This document shows, one piece after another, positions 278-9,372 of a stretch of 58,087 nt of DNA (position 1 is the first letter of the stretch; the number at the start of each line of letters is the position of its first letter). The notes under the pieces were generated by a model. That model worked only from the letters and a program-made list of their open reading frames with translations, had not been told where the DNA came from and ran no database searches. The position numbers and the translations under genes are program-made. The DNA lies in the NCBI GenBank assembly GCA_030148775.1, contig JASBST010000017.1, positions 1 through 58,087 of the forward strand, written 5' to 3'. The DNA is from Thiogranum sp. GTDB taxonomy: Bacteria > Pseudomonadota > Gammaproteobacteria > DSM-19610.

Positions 278-877
278 TTACAACGCCGACAGGGCCAGAT
301 CGGCTTGTACCTGCGCATACAGAGCTGCCAGCGCCGCCTGCATGGCCTGCGCCACGGCGTACATCGTTGTACCCTCGACCGGCTCCTGCCGGCCATAGTC
401 GCGCGTCCAGACGGTGCGCTTTGCATCAGCCGAAAACAGGCTGACCCTGAGGGCCACATCCACCTGCGCCCGGCGGTCGGCAGCGCGCACTTCCTCGAAT
501 TTCAGCACCCGCGCACGCAGCCGCCAGGCCGCCTCCCGACTCTGCGGATCCAATAGCTGATCGGCAATGCCCGACGCGCGCAGCCAGGTAGTCAGCGTAC
601 GTTGCACCAGACGCGGCGGCTGATCGAGCCAGAACTCATAGTGATAGCGCCGCAACTGCAGGGGCCGGTCCTGCTCGCAGTAGAGAATGGCCCGACCGCT
701 GTGCAACGGGTCGGCGCTGACATCGTCGATCACCAGCCCCCCGGTCAGGCGTGACTGTTTCACAGCCTGCACTGGCGGCACGGGCTGCAAGCGATAGAAA
801 CGATCTTCCGGCGCGGGCGGCGCCGACAGACAACCGGCCAGCAACAGGGGCAGCAGAACCATGATGACCTTATTCAC
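278..877 (-). CDS. ABC-type transport auxiliary lipoprotein (PqiC/MCE-associated)
   Basis: This 199-residue protein has a lipoprotein signal with a lipobox (LLLAGC) near residue 15, followed by the auxiliary-lipoprotein pattern RFYRL and a domain ending in an alanine-rich helix. Proteins of this type sit at the outer-membrane end of MCE lipid transporters, as PqiC does. I chose GTG 877 because GGGAGG lies about 7 nt upstream and the start overlaps the stop of the MCE gene by 8 nt (coupled translation). ATG 862 is an alternative start. It is the last transporter gene of the directon, before relA. The role as outer-membrane partner of the upstream MCE/MlaE/MlaF genes is inferred from the family and the gene order. 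Confidence 0.8.
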   Translation of the reverse strand: MNKVIMVLLPLLLAGCLSAPPAPEDRFYRLQPVPPVQAVKQSRLTGGLVIDDVSADPLHSGRAILYCEQDRPLQLRRYHYEFWLDQPPRLVQRTLTTWLRASGIADQLLDPQSREAAWRLRARVLKFEEVRAADRRAQVDVALRVSLFSADAKRTVWTRDYGRQEPVEGTTMYAVAQAMQAALAALYAQVQADLALSAL

Positions 878-1817
878 GTCGCCCTCCCGGATCGGCGGGT
901 GCCGGCGCGCTAAACAACCGGCGCGGGTTTTCCCGTATCTGCCGGCTGAACTCGCTGGCGTTGCGTGCCGTATCGTCAATATTCCGCAGAATGCTGTCAC
1001 TATAGCTCGCCAGCTGTTGCAGTGTCCGGCGCAGATCCGCAACCGCCTGCGCCAGGTCGGGCCGGGTAACATCCACCAGGGCATCGACCTTGGCGATCAG
1101 CTCCCGCGCCTGTCGACTGATACCGACCAAGCCGGCGCTCAGTGTCTGCAGGTCCGCCGTCGCCCCATCCACGTTATTCAAGACCCGCCGCGCTTGAGAA
1201 GCGCTATCCTCATTGAGAATGGTGGCCAGATGGGTGGCGCTGGTGTCCAGCTTGCCGACCAGACTTTGCGCGGCGTCGAGCAGAGACGGCAGTCGTGTTT
1301 CCAGCTCTCCTCCCACGCCCTGCACGGTCCTGGTCAGCGATTGCAGCAAAGGCCGAAGATGCGTGGAACTGAGATCACCCAGTTCACCCGCCAGCGCGCC
1401 CAGCACCGCGAACAGATCACCGCCCGGCCGGCTGGCCAGTGTTGCCCCGGGTTGCAGAAACTGTTCGGCCTGGCCATCTTGTATATCCAGCACGTAGTCG
1501 GCCAACAGGCTTTCGGCATAAATCCGGGTTACGCTGTCGACGGGGATACGCCAGCCTTTGCTCACCCGCATCTCCACGCGGTAAGACAACCCCTCGGCGT
1601 TGCGCTCGGGCTCGATCGCGCTGATACTGCCGATACCGTAACCTTCATAGGTGACCTGGGAACCCGTCTACAGTCCGGCGATATTGCCGTAACGGGTGTA
1701 GTACAGGTCGTAGGCGCCGGCGCCGCCGATAAGGTGATACATGGCGTACAGCAAAACGCCCAGACCGGCCAGTACAAACGAGCCCACGGCAAGATAGTTG
1801 ACCGTATCCTGTTTCAT
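870..1817 (-). pseudogene. MCE (MlaD-family) substrate-binding protein with an in-frame TAG at codon 50
   Basis: The frame from ATG 1817 gives a short cytoplasmic N-terminus, one transmembrane helix (about residues 9-30), then an MCE domain and a long helical tail, the MlaD architecture for lipid shuttling across the periplasm. Codon 50 (1670-1668) is TAG, between NIAGL and TGSQVTYEGYGIG, in the middle of the conserved MCE motif. CAG or a similar codon would restore a normal 315-residue protein. The rest of the frame is open and conserved-looking. The gene is 6 nt from the upstream ATPase gene and overlaps the downstream lipoprotein gene. Translation restarting at TTG 1589 would lack the membrane anchor. 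Family assignment is good. Genuine inactivation versus sequence error cannot be decided here. Confidence 0.75.
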
Positions 1818-1823
1818 TGTCGT

Positions 1824-2648
1824 TTAATCCACGATGTCCGTGAGACGCCGCAGATAAGCCTCGGTGTCCAGGGGTTGCTCTTCATAGGTCCGGGTCAACA
1901 GCTGCTGTACCCGCGGGATCGACGAAGTTCGCAGCTCCGCCACTGACCCGGTCATCAGAATGCGACCCTGGTCGAGCACGGTAATCCGATCGGCGATCTT
2001 GAATGCACTCTCGAGTTCGTGCGTCACCACCACCAGCGAGATCTGCATGGCGTTGCGGATACGCAGAATAAGTTCATCCAGATCAGCGGCCACCACCGTG
2101 TCCAGGCCGGCCGAGGGTTCGTCGAAGAACAGCAGGCCCGGATCCATCACCAGAGCGCGTGCCAGCGCGGCGCGTTTGAGCATGCCACCGGAGAGCTGAG
2201 CGGGCATCAGGTGCTCGAAACCGCCGAGATTGACCATCTCCAGCTTCATCCGGCTCATGATCCGCATGGTGGTGTGATCCAGCCTGGTATGTTCACGCAG
2301 CGGCAGGCAGACGTTTTCGCCCACGCTCATGGAGTTGAATAGCGCACCGCCCTGGAACGCGACCCCCATTTTCTTTCTCAGGACCGCCCATTGCCGGGTG
2401 CCGAGACCGCCGATGTCCTGTCCGAACAGTCGCACCAGACCGGCTCTGGGGCGGTGCAGTCCCAACAGACAGCGCAACAAGGTCGATTTGCCCGAGCCGC
2501 TGCCGCCCATGATCACCATGATCTCGCCCTGACGCACCTGAAGGGACACGTCTTCCAAAACCGGCCGGCCGGTGTAGGTTGCCGACAGATTCCGCACGTC
2601 CACCACCGGATCGCCAGTCGGTTCGATCGCTGCGCCCATGGTTGCCAT
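1824..2648 (-). CDS. MlaF-type ABC transporter ATP-binding protein
   Basis: A 274-residue ATPase that would power lipid movement by the adjacent MlaE-type permease. Visible motifs are Walker A (GGSGSGKST, near residue 50), the ABC signature (LSGGMLKRAALARAL), Walker B (LLFFDEPSAGLD) and the H-loop (VVVTHE). The AGLDTVVA context is typical of MlaF/Ttg2A proteins. ATG 2648 overlaps the permease stop by one base (TGATG), which supports coupled translation. An internal ATG at 2639 is a possible alternative. Downstream comes the MCE gene after 6 nt. The protein appears complete, with all nucleotide-binding motifs intact. Confidence 0.9.
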   Translation of the reverse strand: MATMGAAIEPTGDPVVDVRNLSATYTGRPVLEDVSLQVRQGEIMVIMGGSGSGKSTLLRCLLGLHRPRAGLVRLFGQDIGGLGTRQWAVLRKKMGVAFQGGALFNSMSVGENVCLPLREHTRLDHTTMRIMSRMKLEMVNLGGFEHLMPAQLSGGMLKRAALARALVMDPGLLFFDEPSAGLDTVVAADLDELILRIRNAMQISLVVVTHELESAFKIADRITVLDQGRILMTGSVAELRTSSIPRVQQLLTRTYEEQPLDTEAYLRRLTDIVD

Positions 2649-3451
2649 CACAATATGAGAAAAAAGGTGAAAATCATGTCGGCCACTACGATGGCACTGA
2701 TACAGAGCACGACCGAGCGTGTGGTGGCGCGGCCCAACCCCTCGGCGCCCAGACTCGCGTTGAAACCGTTGCTGGCGGCGATCAGCGCGATCAGAACGCC
2801 GAACACCAGACTTTTCGCCAATCCCTGCCAGATGTCGCCCGGCGTCAGCGCCAGCCAGACCTGTTGCAAAAAGGTACCGAAGCTGATTTTCAGTTCGATC
2901 ATACTGATCAGACCAGCGCCGACCATGGCCAGGCTGTCCGACAGCACCGTGAGCAGTGGCATCATCAGCGTCAGCGCCACCAGCATAGGCGCCACCAGAT
3001 AACGCACCGGCGAGATACCCATCACCCGCAGCGCGTCGATTTCCTGCGACATCTGCATGGTCCCGATGCGCGCGGCAATCGCCGAGCCCGAGCGCGCGGC
3101 GACAATGATACCGGCGATAAGCACACCGAATTCCCGCGTGACGGCGGTCGCCACACTGGCCACCACCTGAGATTCGGCGCCGAACTGGCGCAGGGTATAA
3201 ATACCCTGCATGGCCATCATCGCTCCATTGGCGAAGGCCAGAATCGAGACCACCGGGATGGCGAGCACGCCGACCTGCATCATTTCGTCGACTATCGCCC
3301 GCAGGCGCACGGGTTGGTGCCACCAGCGCCCCAGCAGAAGCCAGAACAGACTTTCGCCCAATAACATCGCCGCGTGACCGAAGTCCTCGACACCGCCGGC
3401 GACACGCCGCCCCAGCTGCTCGGTGAAGACGCGCAAAGCCAACGTGTGCAT
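2648..3451 (-). CDS. MlaE-family ABC transporter permease
   Basis: A 267-residue inner-membrane permease of the MlaE/TGD1 family. It has several hydrophobic segments and the conserved EIDALRVMGISPVRYLVAP stretch near the middle, the coupling region of this family. I chose ATG 3451 because the STAS gene stops at 3453, leaving a 1-nt gap; the longer in-frame start at 3490 would overlap that gene. With the ATPase, MCE and lipoprotein genes it forms a complete lipid (probably phospholipid) transporter between inner and outer membranes. The substrate is inferred from the family and is not visible in the sequence. Confidence 0.9.
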   Translation of the reverse strand: MHTLALRVFTEQLGRRVAGGVEDFGHAAMLLGESLFWLLLGRWWHQPVRLRAIVDEMMQVGVLAIPVVSILAFANGAMMAMQGIYTLRQFGAESQVVASVATAVTREFGVLIAGIIVAARSGSAIAARIGTMQMSQEIDALRVMGISPVRYLVAPMLVALTLMMPLLTVLSDSLAMVGAGLISMIELKISFGTFLQQVWLALTPGDIWQGLAKSLVFGVLIALIAASNGFNASLGAEGLGRATTRSVVLCISAIVVADMIFTFFLIL

Positions 3452-3452
3452 C

Positions 3453-3785
3453 TCAGGCTCCCGTGGCCAGCCGTTCGTCCAGCGAGGCATAGATGGGAAA
3501 AACCTGATCCAGCCGCGCCAGGCGCAGCACGTTCATTGCCGCCTCGCTCACGCCCGTCAACCCGAACTCGAGACTGTTGGAGCGCGCGTATTGGAACCCT
3601 TCCACCAGGCTGGCCACACCGGAGCTGTCGATATAATCGACCGCCGACATATCCACCAGGACGTTATGCATTTTCTTCAGCGACTTCATAATGGCGCGGC
3701 GCGCATCCGGCGAACGACTCAGATCCACGTCGCCGTTGAGCACCACCACCGAAAAGCCCTGTTTTTTCTCCACCGGGAACCCCAT
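3453..3785 (-). CDS. STAS-domain protein (anti-sigma antagonist / MlaB-like)
   Basis: A 110-residue single STAS domain. The hallmark is the loop DSSG at residues 53-56 within VDYIDSSGVASL, matching the phosphorylatable serine site of SpoIIAA/RsbV anti-anti-sigma factors. STAS proteins are also regular partners of MlaF (MlaB), so this protein could serve the transporter, a partner switch, or both. The start at 3785 follows a G-rich ribosome-binding stretch (GGGGGTGGC), and the longer in-frame start would overlap the kinase gene. It lies 14 nt after the RsbW-like gene and 1 nt before the permease gene, physically linking the regulatory module to the transporter. Confidence 0.88.
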   Translation of the reverse strand: MGFPVEKKQGFSVVVLNGDVDLSRSPDARRAIMKSLKKMHNVLVDMSAVDYIDSSGVASLVEGFQYARSNSLEFGLTGVSEAAMNVLRLARLDQVFPIYASLDERLATGA

Positions 3786-3799
3786 GCCACCCCCTTTTT

Positions 3800-4219
3800 T
3801 CACTCTATATATTTTTTCATCTGGTACAAATTGCCTCCGTCCGATGGCGGCTCGAGAAAGCCGCACTCGTCCATCAGGCTGTCGATCAGGTGAACGCCCA
3901 GACCGCCCGGCCTGATATCGCTCAAGTCGCGCGAGCGCACATTACCGGTGTCCACATGATTGGCGTAATCGCGCAATTGCAATACCAGCGCTCCTCGCTC
4001 ACGGATCGCGCGAAGCTCGATTTTTCCGCGCGGGTCCATCGCATACGCATGCTGCATGATGTTCATGCAGGCTTCGTTGACCGCGAGAATTAACGCCTGC
4101 GTCGCCTCTTCATTGAGCCCGGCCAGACAAGCCGCCTCTCGGGCCACGCAACGCAGCAGCTTCAAGCGGCTCGGTTGCGAAGCGAAGCGCACAAAAACCA
4201 GTTCCTCGCACTCAGACAT
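3800..4219 (-). CDS. RsbW/SpoIIAB-like serine kinase (HATPase_c, anti-sigma factor type)
   Basis: A 139-residue GHKL ATPase domain. The N-box reads NEACMNIMQHAY (residues 48-59), there is an RDY motif in the G1 region (83-85), and the glycine box GGLGVHLI lies at 105-112. Proteins of this kind bind a sigma factor or other target and phosphorylate a partner STAS protein on serine. ATG 4219 overlaps the phosphatase stop by 8 nt, indicating coupled translation, and the STAS gene follows after 14 nt. No sigma factor gene is nearby, so the kinase's output target is unknown. Kinase competence is inferred from the intact ATP-binding motifs. Confidence 0.85.
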   Translation of the reverse strand: MSECEELVFVRFASQPSRLKLLRCVAREAACLAGLNEEATQALILAVNEACMNIMQHAYAMDPRGKIELRAIRERGALVLQLRDYANHVDTGNVRSRDLSDIRPGGLGVHLIDSLMDECGFLEPPSDGGNLYQMKKYIE

Positions 4220-5960
4220 GAGGGCGTTCGTCCTCAATAATCAACAAGGTAAGATCGTCCTCGACCCCACCGCTGTTATCCACAACGGCGCCGGCGATCG
4301 CCCGCGCCCGGGCGTCGGGCGGCAAATGGGAATGTCGGCGCAATAAATCCGCCAACCCGTCACCTTGCAGGCGTTGTTCACCGACTCGGGCCTCCAACAA
4401 CCCATCGGTGTACAGATACAGGCAACCGCCGCGCAATTCGACCGTCTCATTGGGAAACGCCGTGTCTGGATTGATCCCCAGCGGTGGCGCCTGGGCGGGA
4501 AATGCCGAAACCGATGCGGTCCCTATCATGTGCAGTGCCGGCGGGTGTCCGGCGCTGGACAACAACACCTGACCGCGCCGCGGGTCGAAAACCCCCGCCT
4601 GCATGGTCACGAACATGCCGCGTACCGAGGTCTCGAAAATCTCCCGGTTGAGCATGGCCAGCAGCTTGCCGGGGTCGCTCACTCCCTTGCCAAGGCAGCG
4701 GAACAGGCTGGCCGTTTTCGCCATCAACAGCGCGGCCTGCATGCCTTTGCCGGACACATCGGCCAGGCAGAAGACGATACGACCGTCGGCGAGCGCGAAA
4801 TAATCGTAGAAATCCCCCGACACCGCACGTGCCGAGAGGTTGAGGCCGGCAATACCGCGCGATCGGGTCGCCGGCAGCAGACTTTTCTGCACTTCACGTG
4901 CGAGCTGCAATTCTTTTTGCAGCTCGGCGGCTATATGGTCGCGCTCGAGCAGCGCCTGTTCAAGGCGCCAGGTGAGTTCCTGATAGCTGAGATTGTCTTC
5001 GACCAGGCGCAAGTTGGCCTCGCGCAACACCTGTTCGAAATCCACCGGTAAACTGATACGCATGCCCATCGCGCTGGCGGCTTCGGACAGCGACTCGGTG
5101 ACCTGTTTCAGGAGTTGATCGCAATCGTCGTCCGTGGTGGCGAAATGCTCGTGGAGCACACGGCGGGTACGCTGAATCGTCCCACGCTTGTCTTCACAGC
5201 GATAAACAGCCGCCATCCAATCGGCGCACAGCGCCAGTCGACAAAGCAGGGCGTCCTGCGGCGCTGACTGCGCCGCGTTCGATCGATGATGATGGCCCAT
5301 CGCCGTGGCCAGATCCTCTGGCAACCCCCAACTGGTGGCCAACGCCAGCCCTACCTCGTCGTGAGTGGTCTGGAACAACGCCTGTTCCAGCTCGCGGCGC
5401 GCGTCAGGTTCGCTGCGACGCAACCGTTCCCACTCGCCGACATGCTGAGGCTGCAGGTAGAACATCACCAGCAGGCCGAAGTCCTGCAACAGACCCACAG
5501 TGAAGCACTCATCGGCGTCCAGCCCCGACGGCGCCGCCAGACTACGGGCGGCCACGGCCCGCAGCAACGCATCCTCCCAGAAGGCGTCGATGTCGAAGCC
5601 GGGAATCGATTCCGCACGCAGAGCATCGCGCATGGCGATACACAGCACCAGATTGCGCAACGCACGGTCGCCGAGAACAGTCACGGCGCGGGCCACCGAA
5701 CGGACCTGGCTGGCAAGGCCGAAGAAGGCCGAATTGGCCACGCGCAGAAGCTCGGCGGTCAGAACCGGGTCGTTGGCGACAATCGCCGCCAGATCCCGGC
5801 TACCGGTATCGGAACGGGAACAGGCCTGTACGACGCGGATCGCGTCCTTGGGTGGCGCGGGCAGATCCGATGGCCGGATTCCATGCGCGGTGAAAGCATC
5901 TTCCATAAGCAATCGATTGTGCATCCTGGTGCGTGCTCGGGTTTTCCATACGCCCAGCAT
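4212..5960 (-). CDS. HDOD domain - coiled coil - SpoIIE/PP2C phosphatase
   Basis: A 582-residue soluble regulator. Residues about 30-240 form an HDOD domain (AAIVANDPVLTAELLRVANS is typical), residues about 310-360 are a predicted coiled coil, and residues about 370-578 are a SpoIIE-type Mn-dependent phosphatase. The metal-binding motifs GDFYD (382-386), ADVSGKG (400-406), YTDG and EDDLTL are all present, so the enzyme looks active. Such phosphatases dephosphorylate STAS antagonists, and the next two genes are exactly an RsbW-like kinase and a STAS protein. An HDOD domain in place of the usual PAS/GAF/REC sensor is uncommon. The start is uncertain: ATGs at 5960, 5924 and 5906 are in frame and none has a clear Shine-Dalgarno sequence. 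Confidence 0.87.
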   Translation of the reverse strand: MLGVWKTRARTRMHNRLLMEDAFTAHGIRPSDLPAPPKDAIRVVQACSRSDTGSRDLAAIVANDPVLTAELLRVANSAFFGLASQVRSVARAVTVLGDRALRNLVLCIAMRDALRAESIPGFDIDAFWEDALLRAVAARSLAAPSGLDADECFTVGLLQDFGLLVMFYLQPQHVGEWERLRRSEPDARRELEQALFQTTHDEVGLALATSWGLPEDLATAMGHHHRSNAAQSAPQDALLCRLALCADWMAAVYRCEDKRGTIQRTRRVLHEHFATTDDDCDQLLKQVTESLSEAASAMGMRISLPVDFEQVLREANLRLVEDNLSYQELTWRLEQALLERDHIAAELQKELQLAREVQKSLLPATRSRGIAGLNLSARAVSGDFYDYFALADGRIVFCLADVSGKGMQAALLMAKTASLFRCLGKGVSDPGKLLAMLNREIFETSVRGMFVTMQAGVFDPRRGQVLLSSAGHPPALHMIGTASVSAFPAQAPPLGINPDTAFPNETVELRGGCLYLYTDGLLEARVGEQRLQGDGLADLLRRHSHLPPDARARAIAGAVVDNSGGVEDDLTLLIIEDERPHV

Positions 5961-6029
5961 AGCGGCCGATTCCGCTTCATCTACAGCATAGGTTTCCCAA
6001 GACTTTCAGCGGATTAGACCGGATGCGGC

Positions 6030-6914
6030 CTACATCAGCGCCTGCAGGGTGGCGGGAAATTGTTCGGCCGCCTCCTCAAAGGCGAAAAACAGCTCGTCTT
6101 CGCTCAAACCCACGGTATCCAACAGCGACTGGCCCAGTCGCACGTCGGCACGCGGCGCCGCCATAAAGTTGCCCTGCTCCGACTCGTTGACCAGTTGGTT
6201 GGCCAGATGCAGCAGATGCGCTTCGATCCGTGCATTGCCCGCCTTTTCCGGCTCGTGGTGACAATGGATGGCCTCGACCAGGGAGGCCGGGAGCTGCCAT
6301 TGCTCCATGAGCTTGGCCGCCACGCTGGCGTGGCTGAAACCGAGCCCCTCCAGCTCGGCGTGGTACAGCAATTCTTCATCACCGTTGGCGAGCAGCAGGA
6401 TGTCGCGCATCTCCTGCGCGCGCTGGTGATAAAGCACCAGACTGCCCAGATCGTGCATCAGGCCGGCGACGAACAGGCGCTCCGGATGGAGAATGTTGGC
6501 GCGAACCGCGAGGGTGCGCGACAACAAGCCGGTGTAGACGCTGTGACGCCAGAACGTATTCATGTCCACCAGCTCGTTGGGCACGCCGGCGAATGTCTTG
6601 ACCGCCGATATCGACAGCACCAACTGATACAACTCGGTGGTGCCGATGACGGTGATCGCCCGGCTGATCGTGTCGATCTTGCGGCTGAAGTTGTAGAACG
6701 AGCTGTTGGCCATCCGCAGCAGACGGGCTGTCAGGTTCGGATCGACCGCAATCACCTTGGCGATATCGGCTGCGCCGGTGGTCGGCAGATGGATCAATTC
6801 AAACAGACGCATGCATACATCGGGGGGCGACACCAGTCCTTCGACGTCGCTGAGCAGTGCACCGACCGAACGCTGTGCTGACTCGCTGATCAAAAGTGTA
6901 TTTTGGCTGTTCAT
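6030..6914 (-). CDS. HDOD-domain protein
   Basis: A 294-residue protein made essentially of one HDOD domain. It contains KVIAVDPNLTARLLRMANSS and GLMHDLGSLVLYHQ, which resemble the same segments in the adjacent HDOD-SpoIIE protein. HDOD domains are catalytically degenerate relatives of HD hydrolases and usually act in signalling or regulation. The gene is 69 nt upstream of the phosphatase gene on the same strand and may share its transcript. ATG 6914 was chosen because the upstream in-frame extension to 6983 shows no domain similarity. Divergent from the DUF1631 gene, with a 172-nt shared upstream region. Its specific role is unknown. Confidence 0.85.
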   Translation of the reverse strand: MNSQNTLLISESAQRSVGALLSDVEGLVSPPDVCMRLFELIHLPTTGAADIAKVIAVDPNLTARLLRMANSSFYNFSRKIDTISRAITVIGTTELYQLVLSISAVKTFAGVPNELVDMNTFWRHSVYTGLLSRTLAVRANILHPERLFVAGLMHDLGSLVLYHQRAQEMRDILLLANGDEELLYHAELEGLGFSHASVAAKLMEQWQLPASLVEAIHCHHEPEKAGNARIEAHLLHLANQLVNESEQGNFMAAPRADVRLGQSLLDTVGLSEDELFFAFEEAAEQFPATLQALM

Positions 6915-7086: not shown

Positions 7087-9372
7087 ATGCCAGATACCGC
7101 CAACGAAAAAGTTGTCAGCCTCGACGATTATGGGCAGATGCGGCGCGGGCTGGGCAACGGTCCCGGCACCAATGCGCTGCGTGAGGTCCGTGAGCTGGCC
7201 AGTAGCCGCCTGAAGCAGCAGGTCGGCCGAATGATGGAGAAAGTCGACGACGCATTGTTCGCCCGCGCCGAAAAGGCCGAGAACAACATGTCGCAGACCA
7301 CCTATTTCGACGCGATGCGTGAAATGCGCATCATCCGCGAAGACATCGAAGAGGATTTTATCGCCGGTTTCAATGCCCGCTTCAATCAGGGTGTTCCCCG
7401 CCAGAAGGGCAGCGACCAGAGCTTGAGCCTGAGCTTCGAGGACGATGCCTCCATCGGGCTGGTCGGCAAGGACGATATGGAAGAGGATCTGGCGATCGCC
7501 AACATGGTCACCAAAACCCGCGGCACCTGTACCCAATCGCTGTATTCTCTGGATAAACGCATAGGCTTCCTCATCCGCGATCCCGATCTGGAGCAGTGGC
7601 ACAACCCGCTCGGGCCCGAAGCCATCTGCGATGCGTTCCGCGAAGCGGCCAGACGCATAGAAACCGGGCTGGAGATCCGGCTGGTCATATTCAAGCTGTT
7701 CGACCAGCACGTGATCTGCCACATGGATGAACTGTACAAGGAAATCAATCAGGCGCTGGTCCGTCTGGGCGTACTTCCCGAGATCCGTGCCACGTTACGC
7801 AAGTCTGGACATCCCACAGGCGGCCATCCGGGTGTTCCCACGACCGACGGCGAGACCTGTGCGCCCGGGCAACCGGCTCTCGAGCACGGCGCTACCACGG
7901 CGGGATATGCGCCGTCGGGTTACTTGGCGGGCCCCGGAGCCCCCGTCGGCGGATCTACCGGTACGCCCTATACCGGGGACGGCGGCGCAGCTGCCGGTTA
8001 TGGCGGCATTCACGGCTCGCTGGCGGCGCTGACTTTTCTGCAACACGGCGGTTCGGGCGCGGGCGAAACGCCGACGGAACAGTTTGGCCTGGACAGCTCG
8101 GTCATCGCCTCCGGCCAGGTCAACATACTGCACGGCATCAAAGGGACGCCGCTGGCGCAGGAATTGGGCAAAGCGGGCGATATGACCATCGACATCGTCG
8201 CCATGCTGTTCGACTACATTCTCGACGAACCCAGCATCCCCGACGCCATGCGCGCCTTGATCGGGCGCCTGCAGATTCCGGTTCTGAAAGTCGCCCTGAT
8301 GGAGCGTGAGTTCTTTACCCGCAAATCCCACCCCGCGCGTCAGCTCCTCAACCGACTGGCCGCAAACGCGGTCAGTTGGGATGAGAGCCAGGGCAGCGAC
8401 GACCCCTTGTATCGCAAGATCGAGTCGACCGTGCAGACCATCGTCGACAAATTCGAAGATGACACCGGTCTGTTCGAGACCTTATTGAACGAGCTGGATG
8501 GGTTCCTGGCCCAGGAGGAGGAACGGGCGCAGATACGCACGGAACGTTCGGTGCGGGTTATGCAGGGTCGCGAACGCCTGGCGGTGGCCGAAGCCAGCAC
8601 GCGCGAGGAGATCGAACCGCGTGTTGGCGACGAGGTCGGCCTCGATTTTATCCGCACGTTCGTGACCGGACACTGGAAGAATCTTCTGTTTTTGATCTGT
8701 ACCCGCGAAGGAAAGGACAGCGAGGCCTGGCGTCGGGCGGTCGCCACCATGGACGATCTGATCTGGAGCGTCAAACCGAAGCACAGCCTGGATGAGCGCA
8801 AAAAACTGATAGCGATGCAGCCGGCGTTGCTGCAGGACCTGCGCCAGGGGATGGAACGGTTGTCGGTTCCCAGCAGCGAGCGCGACGACTTCATCGCGCG
8901 ACTGGTCCGGGCGCACGGCCGCACCGCCGCCAAAGCGCAGGACGGTGATCCCCAGCCACAGCCTTCCACGGCGCAACCAGACCACCCGGCGAAGACGGCG
9001 CCTGCGACCGGCGAGCACACGCCTTCCGTCCCCACGCGGTCGATGAAACAGGAAATCCGTATTCCCACCGCCGCCAACCAAGCCGCGCCCGAGGCAGACG
9101 ACGCCTGCAGCAGAAAGGTCCGGGCGCTGAAGACCGGCGACTGGCTCGAGGTGATCGCGGACGACGGCAGCGTCACGCGCGCGAAGTTGAGCTGGAAAAG
9201 CCCGATCACCGGCACCTACCTGCTCACCGACAGGCAGGGGCTGAAAGCCGGAAACTACACCCACGACGAACTGGCCGGCCTGGTCCGCCGCGCACGCGTG
9301 CGCATCCTCAACCGTACGCCGTTAATGGACCGCGCGGTCGGCGAAGTGTTGAAAGAGTATCAGAAACGTTGA
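7087..9372 (+). CDS. DUF1631 family protein
   Basis: A 761-residue protein recognised as DUF1631 by the conserved N-terminal region (about residues 30-150), a middle helical region (about 310-600) and the C-terminal segment RAKLSWKSPITGTYL followed by TDRQGLKAG. No enzymatic function is established; some database names (thymidine phosphorylase) are not supported by motifs here. Residues about 235-320 form a Gly/Pro/Ala/Thr-rich, probably disordered insert, and a second low-complexity linker lies at about 620-670. Starts at ATG 7087 and runs divergently from the HDOD gene. Cytoplasmic, with no signal or membrane segment. Confidence 0.82.
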   Translation: MPDTANEKVVSLDDYGQMRRGLGNGPGTNALREVRELASSRLKQQVGRMMEKVDDALFARAEKAENNMSQTTYFDAMREMRIIREDIEEDFIAGFNARFNQGVPRQKGSDQSLSLSFEDDASIGLVGKDDMEEDLAIANMVTKTRGTCTQSLYSLDKRIGFLIRDPDLEQWHNPLGPEAICDAFREAARRIETGLEIRLVIFKLFDQHVICHMDELYKEINQALVRLGVLPEIRATLRKSGHPTGGHPGVPTTDGETCAPGQPALEHGATTAGYAPSGYLAGPGAPVGGSTGTPYTGDGGAAAGYGGIHGSLAALTFLQHGGSGAGETPTEQFGLDSSVIASGQVNILHGIKGTPLAQELGKAGDMTIDIVAMLFDYILDEPSIPDAMRALIGRLQIPVLKVALMEREFFTRKSHPARQLLNRLAANAVSWDESQGSDDPLYRKIESTVQTIVDKFEDDTGLFETLLNELDGFLAQEEERAQIRTERSVRVMQGRERLAVAEASTREEIEPRVGDEVGLDFIRTFVTGHWKNLLFLICTREGKDSEAWRRAVATMDDLIWSVKPKHSLDERKKLIAMQPALLQDLRQGMERLSVPSSERDDFIARLVRAHGRTAAKAQDGDPQPQPSTAQPDHPAKTAPATGEHTPSVPTRSMKQEIRIPTAANQAAPEADDACSRKVRALKTGDWLEVIADDGSVTRAKLSWKSPITGTYLLTDRQGLKAGNYTHDELAGLVRRARVRILNRTPLMDRAVGEVLKEYQKR

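Follow-up and report, generated by a model that had tools for sequence, protein, structure and literature searches.

A minus-strand gene set occupying the first 7 kb of a 58,087-nucleotide contig of Thiogranum sp. (Gammaproteobacteria; GenBank assembly GCA_030148775.1, contig JASBST010000017.1, the whole of which is hereafter called the window) joins a partner-switching module, composed of a SpoIIE-type phosphatase, an RsbW-type kinase and a STAS protein with a DSSG site, to the genes of an MCE lipid transporter (Table 1). The kinase, phosphatase and STAS protein form a module dedicated to this MlaF-type transporter, a link that is well supported because the gene order is conserved, the components co-occur and the C-terminal tail of MlaF is conserved. 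Gene order, conservation, co-occurrence, motifs and the MlaF tail are also the basis for proposing that the module probably controls the transporter directly, the STAS protein replacing MlaB and phosphorylation being the off state.

A search of 144 relatives with only the kinase protein of the window matched 40 of them and returned 30 loci, in 27 of which the kinase (or its fusion) was followed by STAS and then by MlaE. The exceptions were one locus cut by a contig end (L026) and two without MlaE (L046 and L050). A scan of named genomes, comprising the best 80 of 141 loci and including Thiogranum, Thiohalobacter and Methylohalomonas lacus, located MlaE within 3.5 kb in 65 of the 80 loci and MlaF alone in three more (68 of 80 with MlaE or MlaF). 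An even sample of 369 genomes of the class yielded 67 kinase matches in 64 genomes at E ≤ 1e-15, and 54 of the 59 strong matches, defined by E ≤ 3.3e-33, adjoined MlaE and/or MlaF, these linked kinases being spread over 32 family codes; the 14 members used to build kinase profile A1 were all MlaE-linked, so that searching with it favours linked relatives. The five unlinked strong matches were those of G137, G330, G359, G202 (at a contig end) and G062, with FHA-like neighbours, judged by sequence, in the first three (loci L046, L223 and L227). Five of the eight weaker kinase matches were inspected (G377, G062:C35, G064:C6, G087 and G123) and none was linked. Across the phylum, a kinase match at E ≤ 1e-30 was present in seven of 398 evenly sampled genomes. 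Among the five of these that were new, the order kinase-STAS-MlaE-MlaF-MCE-lipoprotein was found outside the class in G509 and G390, and kinase-STAS-MlaF-MlaE-MCE in G576, and no link was seen in G656 (1.4 kb from a contig end) and G724. A single origin of the linkage is not claimed, because the kinase phylogeny made with FastTree from 131 rows and 139 columns was poorly resolved and the linkage labels required 10 changes on it. The first-pass annotation, made from the sequence of the window, had advised a genome search for the order SpoIIE-HATPase-STAS-MlaE-MlaF-MCE; the recurrence of MlaE after STAS in relatives is more than chance.

When the MlaF of one linked locus (L176) was used as query, a close relative was found in 60 of the 369 genomes at E ≤ 1e-75. 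Kinase and this type of MlaF occurred together in 57 genomes, the kinase alone in two (G330 and G232, the latter with a cut contig), MlaF alone in three (G085, G252 and G030, the last with a cut contig) and neither in 307 (Fisher's p = 1e-60, a value that ignores relatedness and shared operons); much of this co-occurrence is explained by the sharing of an operon by kinase and MlaF. More telling of the link is the fate of clearly separated kinases, of which there were four: three of their genomes (G137, G359 and G062) hold a cognate MlaF on another contig, with 58–70% identity and the same tail, as against 37–48% for the other MlaF matches listed. These cognate MlaFs adjoin MlaE and MCE genes, no STAS was found beside them, and that of G062 is listed with one TAG. 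G330 had no MlaF above 48%, and its kinase frame contains a TGA. G202 also holds a cognate MlaF (73%) elsewhere but was not counted as separated: its kinase sits at the edge of a contig, and one of the two such MlaFs of G308, a member of the same genus, is linked. At locus L304, transporter genes were kept without kinase and STAS and the tyrosine of the MlaF tail was changed, which is possibly a natural loss of the switch.

Linked loci contained 129 MlaFs, 29 of them fragments; a Y-x-x-x-L motif stood near the C-terminus in 99 of the 100 complete copies (89 of 90 distinct sequences), the exception being L076. The gene directly after STAS was MlaE in 130 of the 141 linked loci and MlaF in the other 11, among them L091, L169 and L234, where the available downstream stretch showed no MlaE. 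L176 has the order STAS-MlaF-MlaE-MCE-MlaA followed by an MlaC-like gene, with no other STAS, L165 has STAS-MlaE-MCE-MlaA-MlaC, and MlaA also occurs in L168. Apparent fusions of STAS to MlaF or MlaE in kinase operons (L169, L172, L173, L174 and L177) were rejected: their N-terminal extensions were judged to be out-of-frame readings across the STAS gene, and each locus proved to have a separate STAS frame. Beyond the operon, a second pair of MlaE and short MCE genes was observed at L168 (9703-11787), where MlaA follows the pair, L167 (4538-5842) and L213; no MlaF of its own was seen there, and therefore one MlaF may serve two permeases.

The phosphorylatable-looking DSSG site noted in the first-pass annotation is present in the STAS protein of the window and in all 141 linked loci (108 of 108 distinct sequences); it was missing from two of 159 STAS proteins (L180 and L181), both from weak outgroup modules. 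Kinase motifs EAxxN and GGLG occurred in 140 and 141 of the 141 linked loci, respectively, and a kinase profile built from 14 relatives matched the RsbW structure 6m36 at 1.8e-22. The phosphatase of the window contains SGDFYDY and ADVSGKG (catalytic Asp motifs), and the corresponding PP2C motifs GDFxD and DxxGKG were conserved in 124 and 128 of 131 linked copies. Judged by its sequence, the STAS protein of the window is RsbV-like and not MlaB-like. Searched against the PDB, it retrieved anti-sigma factor antagonists along with other STAS proteins, and MlaB did not appear at E ≤ 0.01; its structural model (pLDDT 92.5) matched TM1442, RsbV, RsfB and SpoIIAA among the best 50 Foldseek rows, which included no MlaB. 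In a tree of 41 STAS domains, with long branches and few columns, the kinase-linked STAS proteins formed one clade (95/97) separate from MlaB, from STAS-MlaE fusions and from other RsbV-like proteins. A comparison with MlaB and RsbV types in a tree had been suggested earlier: kinship with MlaB fell away, the protein belonging to a clade of its own, and likeness to RsbV-type proteins stood.

In the proposed mechanism, STAS and not MlaB would be the partner that this MlaF has in the cytoplasm, and kinase and MlaF would share unphosphorylated STAS. The RsbW-type kinase would phosphorylate the first Ser of DSSG, a residue that, by analogy with Thr52 of E. coli MlaB, may sit in the MlaF interface, so that phospho-STAS would leave MlaF and the transporter would be turned off. 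STAS and transport would be restored by the SpoIIE phosphatase under the control of its sensor domain, which is HDOD here and GAF or receiver elsewhere. The first-pass annotation had proposed both jobs, MlaF partner and kinase substrate, for this STAS protein; the dedicated link of module and transporter is well supported, and STAS phosphorylation, STAS-MlaF binding, the switching of transport and its sign, and the signal are inferred. In E. coli, according to the available part of the source, Thr52 of MlaB is near the centre of the MlaF-MlaB interface, the C-terminal tail of MlaF docks there too, and the Thr52Glu variant, from which the sign is taken, binds MlaF less well, lowering the MlaF recovered in pull-down (PMC7367683). 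This last result argues against a mechanism with a small but real chance of being right, in which STAS would stay on MlaF whether phosphorylated or not and phosphorylation would tune ATPase activity, not assembly; it would fit the E. coli T52A protein, which in the passages available retains the complex but abolishes ATPase activity (PMC5016091).

An unlikely alternative to direct control is that the module acts elsewhere, on a sigma factor, on an anti-sigma-like protein or on the neighbouring FHA/Ser-Thr kinase network, and is only co-expressed with the transporter. STAS and kinase do resemble RsbV and RsbW, and nine tree rows place the module beside FHA-like genes without MlaE or MlaF, the cluster at L098 including a CHASE2 Ser/Thr kinase; however, three of the four clearly separated modules belong to genomes that keep the cognate MlaF elsewhere, STAS adjoins MlaF itself in 11 of 141 linked loci, and fourteen tree rows show both MlaE/F and FHA-like neighbours. 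A sigma factor as the true target of the kinase, an option raised in the first-pass annotation, was not found among the eight operon genes scanned with Pfam; the kinase may yet have a target elsewhere. An FHA protein and a PP2C phosphatase adjoin modules at L098 (7851-11965), where Pfam identified the CHASE2 kinase, and at L304 (9090-10725), and FHA-like genes recur beside other modules, with or without transporter genes; FHA, PP2C and kinase genes and switch modules may belong to one signalling network.

The input domain of the phosphatase varies: it is HDOD in the window and, in ten other SpoIIE proteins scanned, GAF (eight) or receiver (two). An upstream HDOD gene is also found in L053-L058, L061, L062 and L067, and fusions of PP2C to the kinase occur (L083 and L123). 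A reversed flow, in which the state of MlaF would set the amount of free STAS and the kinase would signal to some other target how loaded the transporter is or that the membrane is damaged, is quite improbable: partner switching is symmetrical and the dedicated link gives no direction, but varied sensor domains on the phosphatase are as expected of an input side, and the operon showed no gene recognisable as a further target.

Several observations weigh against direct control of the transporter by the module. STAS is nearer to the RsbV type than to MlaB, so that MlaF binding is not given by its family. STAS adjoins MlaE rather than MlaF in 125 of the 141 linked loci, and at five further loci with MlaE after STAS (L165, L238, L241, L245 and L083, which ends inside MlaE) the only MlaF seen was on the other strand. 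Twelve of the 80 named loci had neither MlaE nor MlaF within 3.5 kb; nine of these have a nearby FHA-like gene (recognised by a short sequence pattern, and confirmed by Pfam only in L098), and of the remaining three, L093 ends soon after STAS and L063 and L089 had no STAS match. G085 and G252 hold MlaF without the kinase: in G085 transporter genes remain although kinase and STAS are missing, and its MlaF has the tail DAFIERLLN, and in G252 the tail, DDYLDMLTRN, is unchanged in kind. Seven of the 131 PP2C copies lack GDFxD and three lack DxxGKG. In E. coli, Thr52Ala is not a simple mimic of the unphosphorylated state, according to the part of the source available (PMC7367683). Mean-field direct coupling analysis among STAS, kinase, MlaF, MlaE and PP2C (88 complete sets, 76 without near copies, effective number 45) gave no usable coevolution signal, the top pairs lying mostly at termini and gaps and non-contact pairs scoring equally, because the sequences were too few. 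Finally, the MCE frame of the window is interrupted.

Table 1. Genes of the operon in the window, listed in the direction of transcription.
Feature	Position	Strand	Basis
HDOD protein, first gene of the set	6030..6914	-	PF08668 4.9e-60 (Pfam)
HDOD-SpoIIE (PP2C-type) phosphatase	4212..5960	-	PF08668 4e-52 and PF07228 3.7e-39
RsbW-type HATPase, presumed STAS kinase	3800..4219	-	PF13581 (HATPase_c_2) 5.7e-24
STAS protein with DSSG site	3453..3785	-	PF01740 1.1e-17
MlaE-type permease, no fused STAS domain	2648..3451	-	PF02405 8.9e-70, sole family found
MlaF-type ATPase, C-terminal extension ending EAYLRRLTDIVD	1824..2648	-	PF00005 (ABC_tran) 7.9e-31
MCE protein gene, in-frame TAG	870..1817	-	sequence; two pieces match MCE profile
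ABC_trans_aux lipoprotein	278..874	-	PF03886 8.6e-12

All genes named in the first-pass annotation, from the HDOD gene to that of the lipoprotein, are present in the same order, and the tight junctions that it described were read from the sequence with the same values. The SpoIIE frame, with a stop ending at 4212, overlaps by 8 nt the kinase frame, which opens with the ATG at 4219; a 1-nt gap separates the end of the STAS stop (3453) from the MlaE ATG (3451); and the MlaE stop ends at 2648, where the MlaF ATG begins (1-nt overlap). STAS has two candidate starts, ATG 3785 or GTG 3803. Matches of the MlaF-type ATPase in the PDB include MlaF chains, and its tail is kept in relatives. MlaA and MlaC are absent from the operon genes of the window, the operon ending with ABC_trans_aux (Pfam). 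A DUF1631 protein is encoded divergently from the operon (7087-9372, plus strand), and L171 has a gene of similar appearance upstream.

Codon 50 of the MCE gene is an in-frame TAG (1670-1668, minus strand), which had gone unmentioned in the first-pass annotation. No stop stands at this position in the 17 rows of relatives printed (L168 and L171 repeat L070 and L061). The frame starting after the TAG gave sub-threshold Pfam matches, one of them MCE-related (Mce4_CUP1), and the pieces flanking it each matched an MCE profile built from relatives, at 196 and 56 bits (L002). The source genome is available as a draft in 111 contigs with a completeness of 86.7%, and the TAG may be a true mutation or an error of the draft assembly. 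A second in-frame TAG was observed at about 89-87 (minus strand) in a contig-edge gene resembling RelA/SpoT; at the same-genus locus L171 the RelA/SpoT gene (Pfam), which follows the lipoprotein gene, is uninterrupted. Recoding of TAG in this genome was considered for the two in-frame TAGs and set aside on the stop codons of this operon: the HDOD gene itself stops with TAG (6032), and its neighbours with TGA or TAA.

Contig C32 of the same genome bears a second MlaE gene in a canonical operon distinct from that of the window. Alongside it are genes for MlaF, a short MCE protein and a STAS protein truncated where the contig ends, the one MlaB-like gene found in the genome; the best PDB matches of this STAS protein are either MlaB or further STAS subunits from Mla-type transporters. 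Three more STAS matches above the cut-off lie inside frames of 524-731 amino acids. A second MlaB dedicated to the transporter of the window, which the first-pass annotation had said would speak against its proposal, was not found in this incomplete genome, in a search that left out the STAS_2 family.

Phosphorylation of MlaB was reportedly considered by Thong et al. (2016) and by Kolich et al. (2020). In the portions available, a 2016 paper hypothesises it, naming no kinase (PMC5016091), and a 2020 paper discusses it, noting that experimental evidence was absent (PMC7367683); in the main text of a review of STAS-only proteins, likewise available in part, the word 'lipid' does not occur (PMC8256260). 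No description of a kinase/phosphatase coupled to an MCE transporter was found in the literature searched, which covered few subscription journals or preprints. The earlier statement that no description of such coupling was known agrees with these searches as regards the coupling, but the idea of MlaB phosphorylation is already in print in the passages cited: the novelty lies in a candidate kinase and phosphatase whose genes accompany those of the transporter.

Like RsbU/RsbW/RsbV and SpoIIE/SpoIIAB/SpoIIAA, the system has adjacent genes for a PP2C phosphatase, an HATPase kinase and a STAS protein with DSSG; unlike them, it is followed by an MCE transporter, has no sigma factor among the scanned genes and takes HDOD, GAF or receiver inputs. 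With E. coli MlaFEDB it shares MlaE, MlaF with a C-terminal extension, an MCE protein and a STAS protein, but the STAS of the window is RsbV-like and accompanied by kinase and phosphatase, and the operon has an auxiliary lipoprotein and neither MlaA nor MlaC among its genes. The phosphoregulation proposed for MlaB concerns the same Ser/Thr position and likewise would control MlaF, as far as the available passages state (PMC5016091; PMC7367683), whereas that hypothesis names no kinase there and here candidates are encoded beside the transporter. SypA/SypE and stressosomes, in the parts of the sources at hand, share the kinase/STAS logic, some with outputs beyond a sigma factor; among the papers listed, also available in part, only that on the MlaFB structure concerns an ABC transporter, and it involves no kinase.

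On balance we lean to the view that widespread envelope lipid transporters are switched post-translationally by reversible serine phosphorylation of a STAS protein of signalling and not MlaB descent, each served by its own kinase and by a phosphatase that carries a sensor; by reason of that descent, a gene-regulation module would have been re-used as a transporter switch. Control of Mla-type transporters through STAS phosphorylation, a question raised in 2016 and 2020, becomes directly testable, because in many families the genes for a candidate kinase, its phosphatase and its substrate accompany those of the transporter. If the proposal is true, partner switching would extend from gene regulation to the direct control of an ABC transporter.

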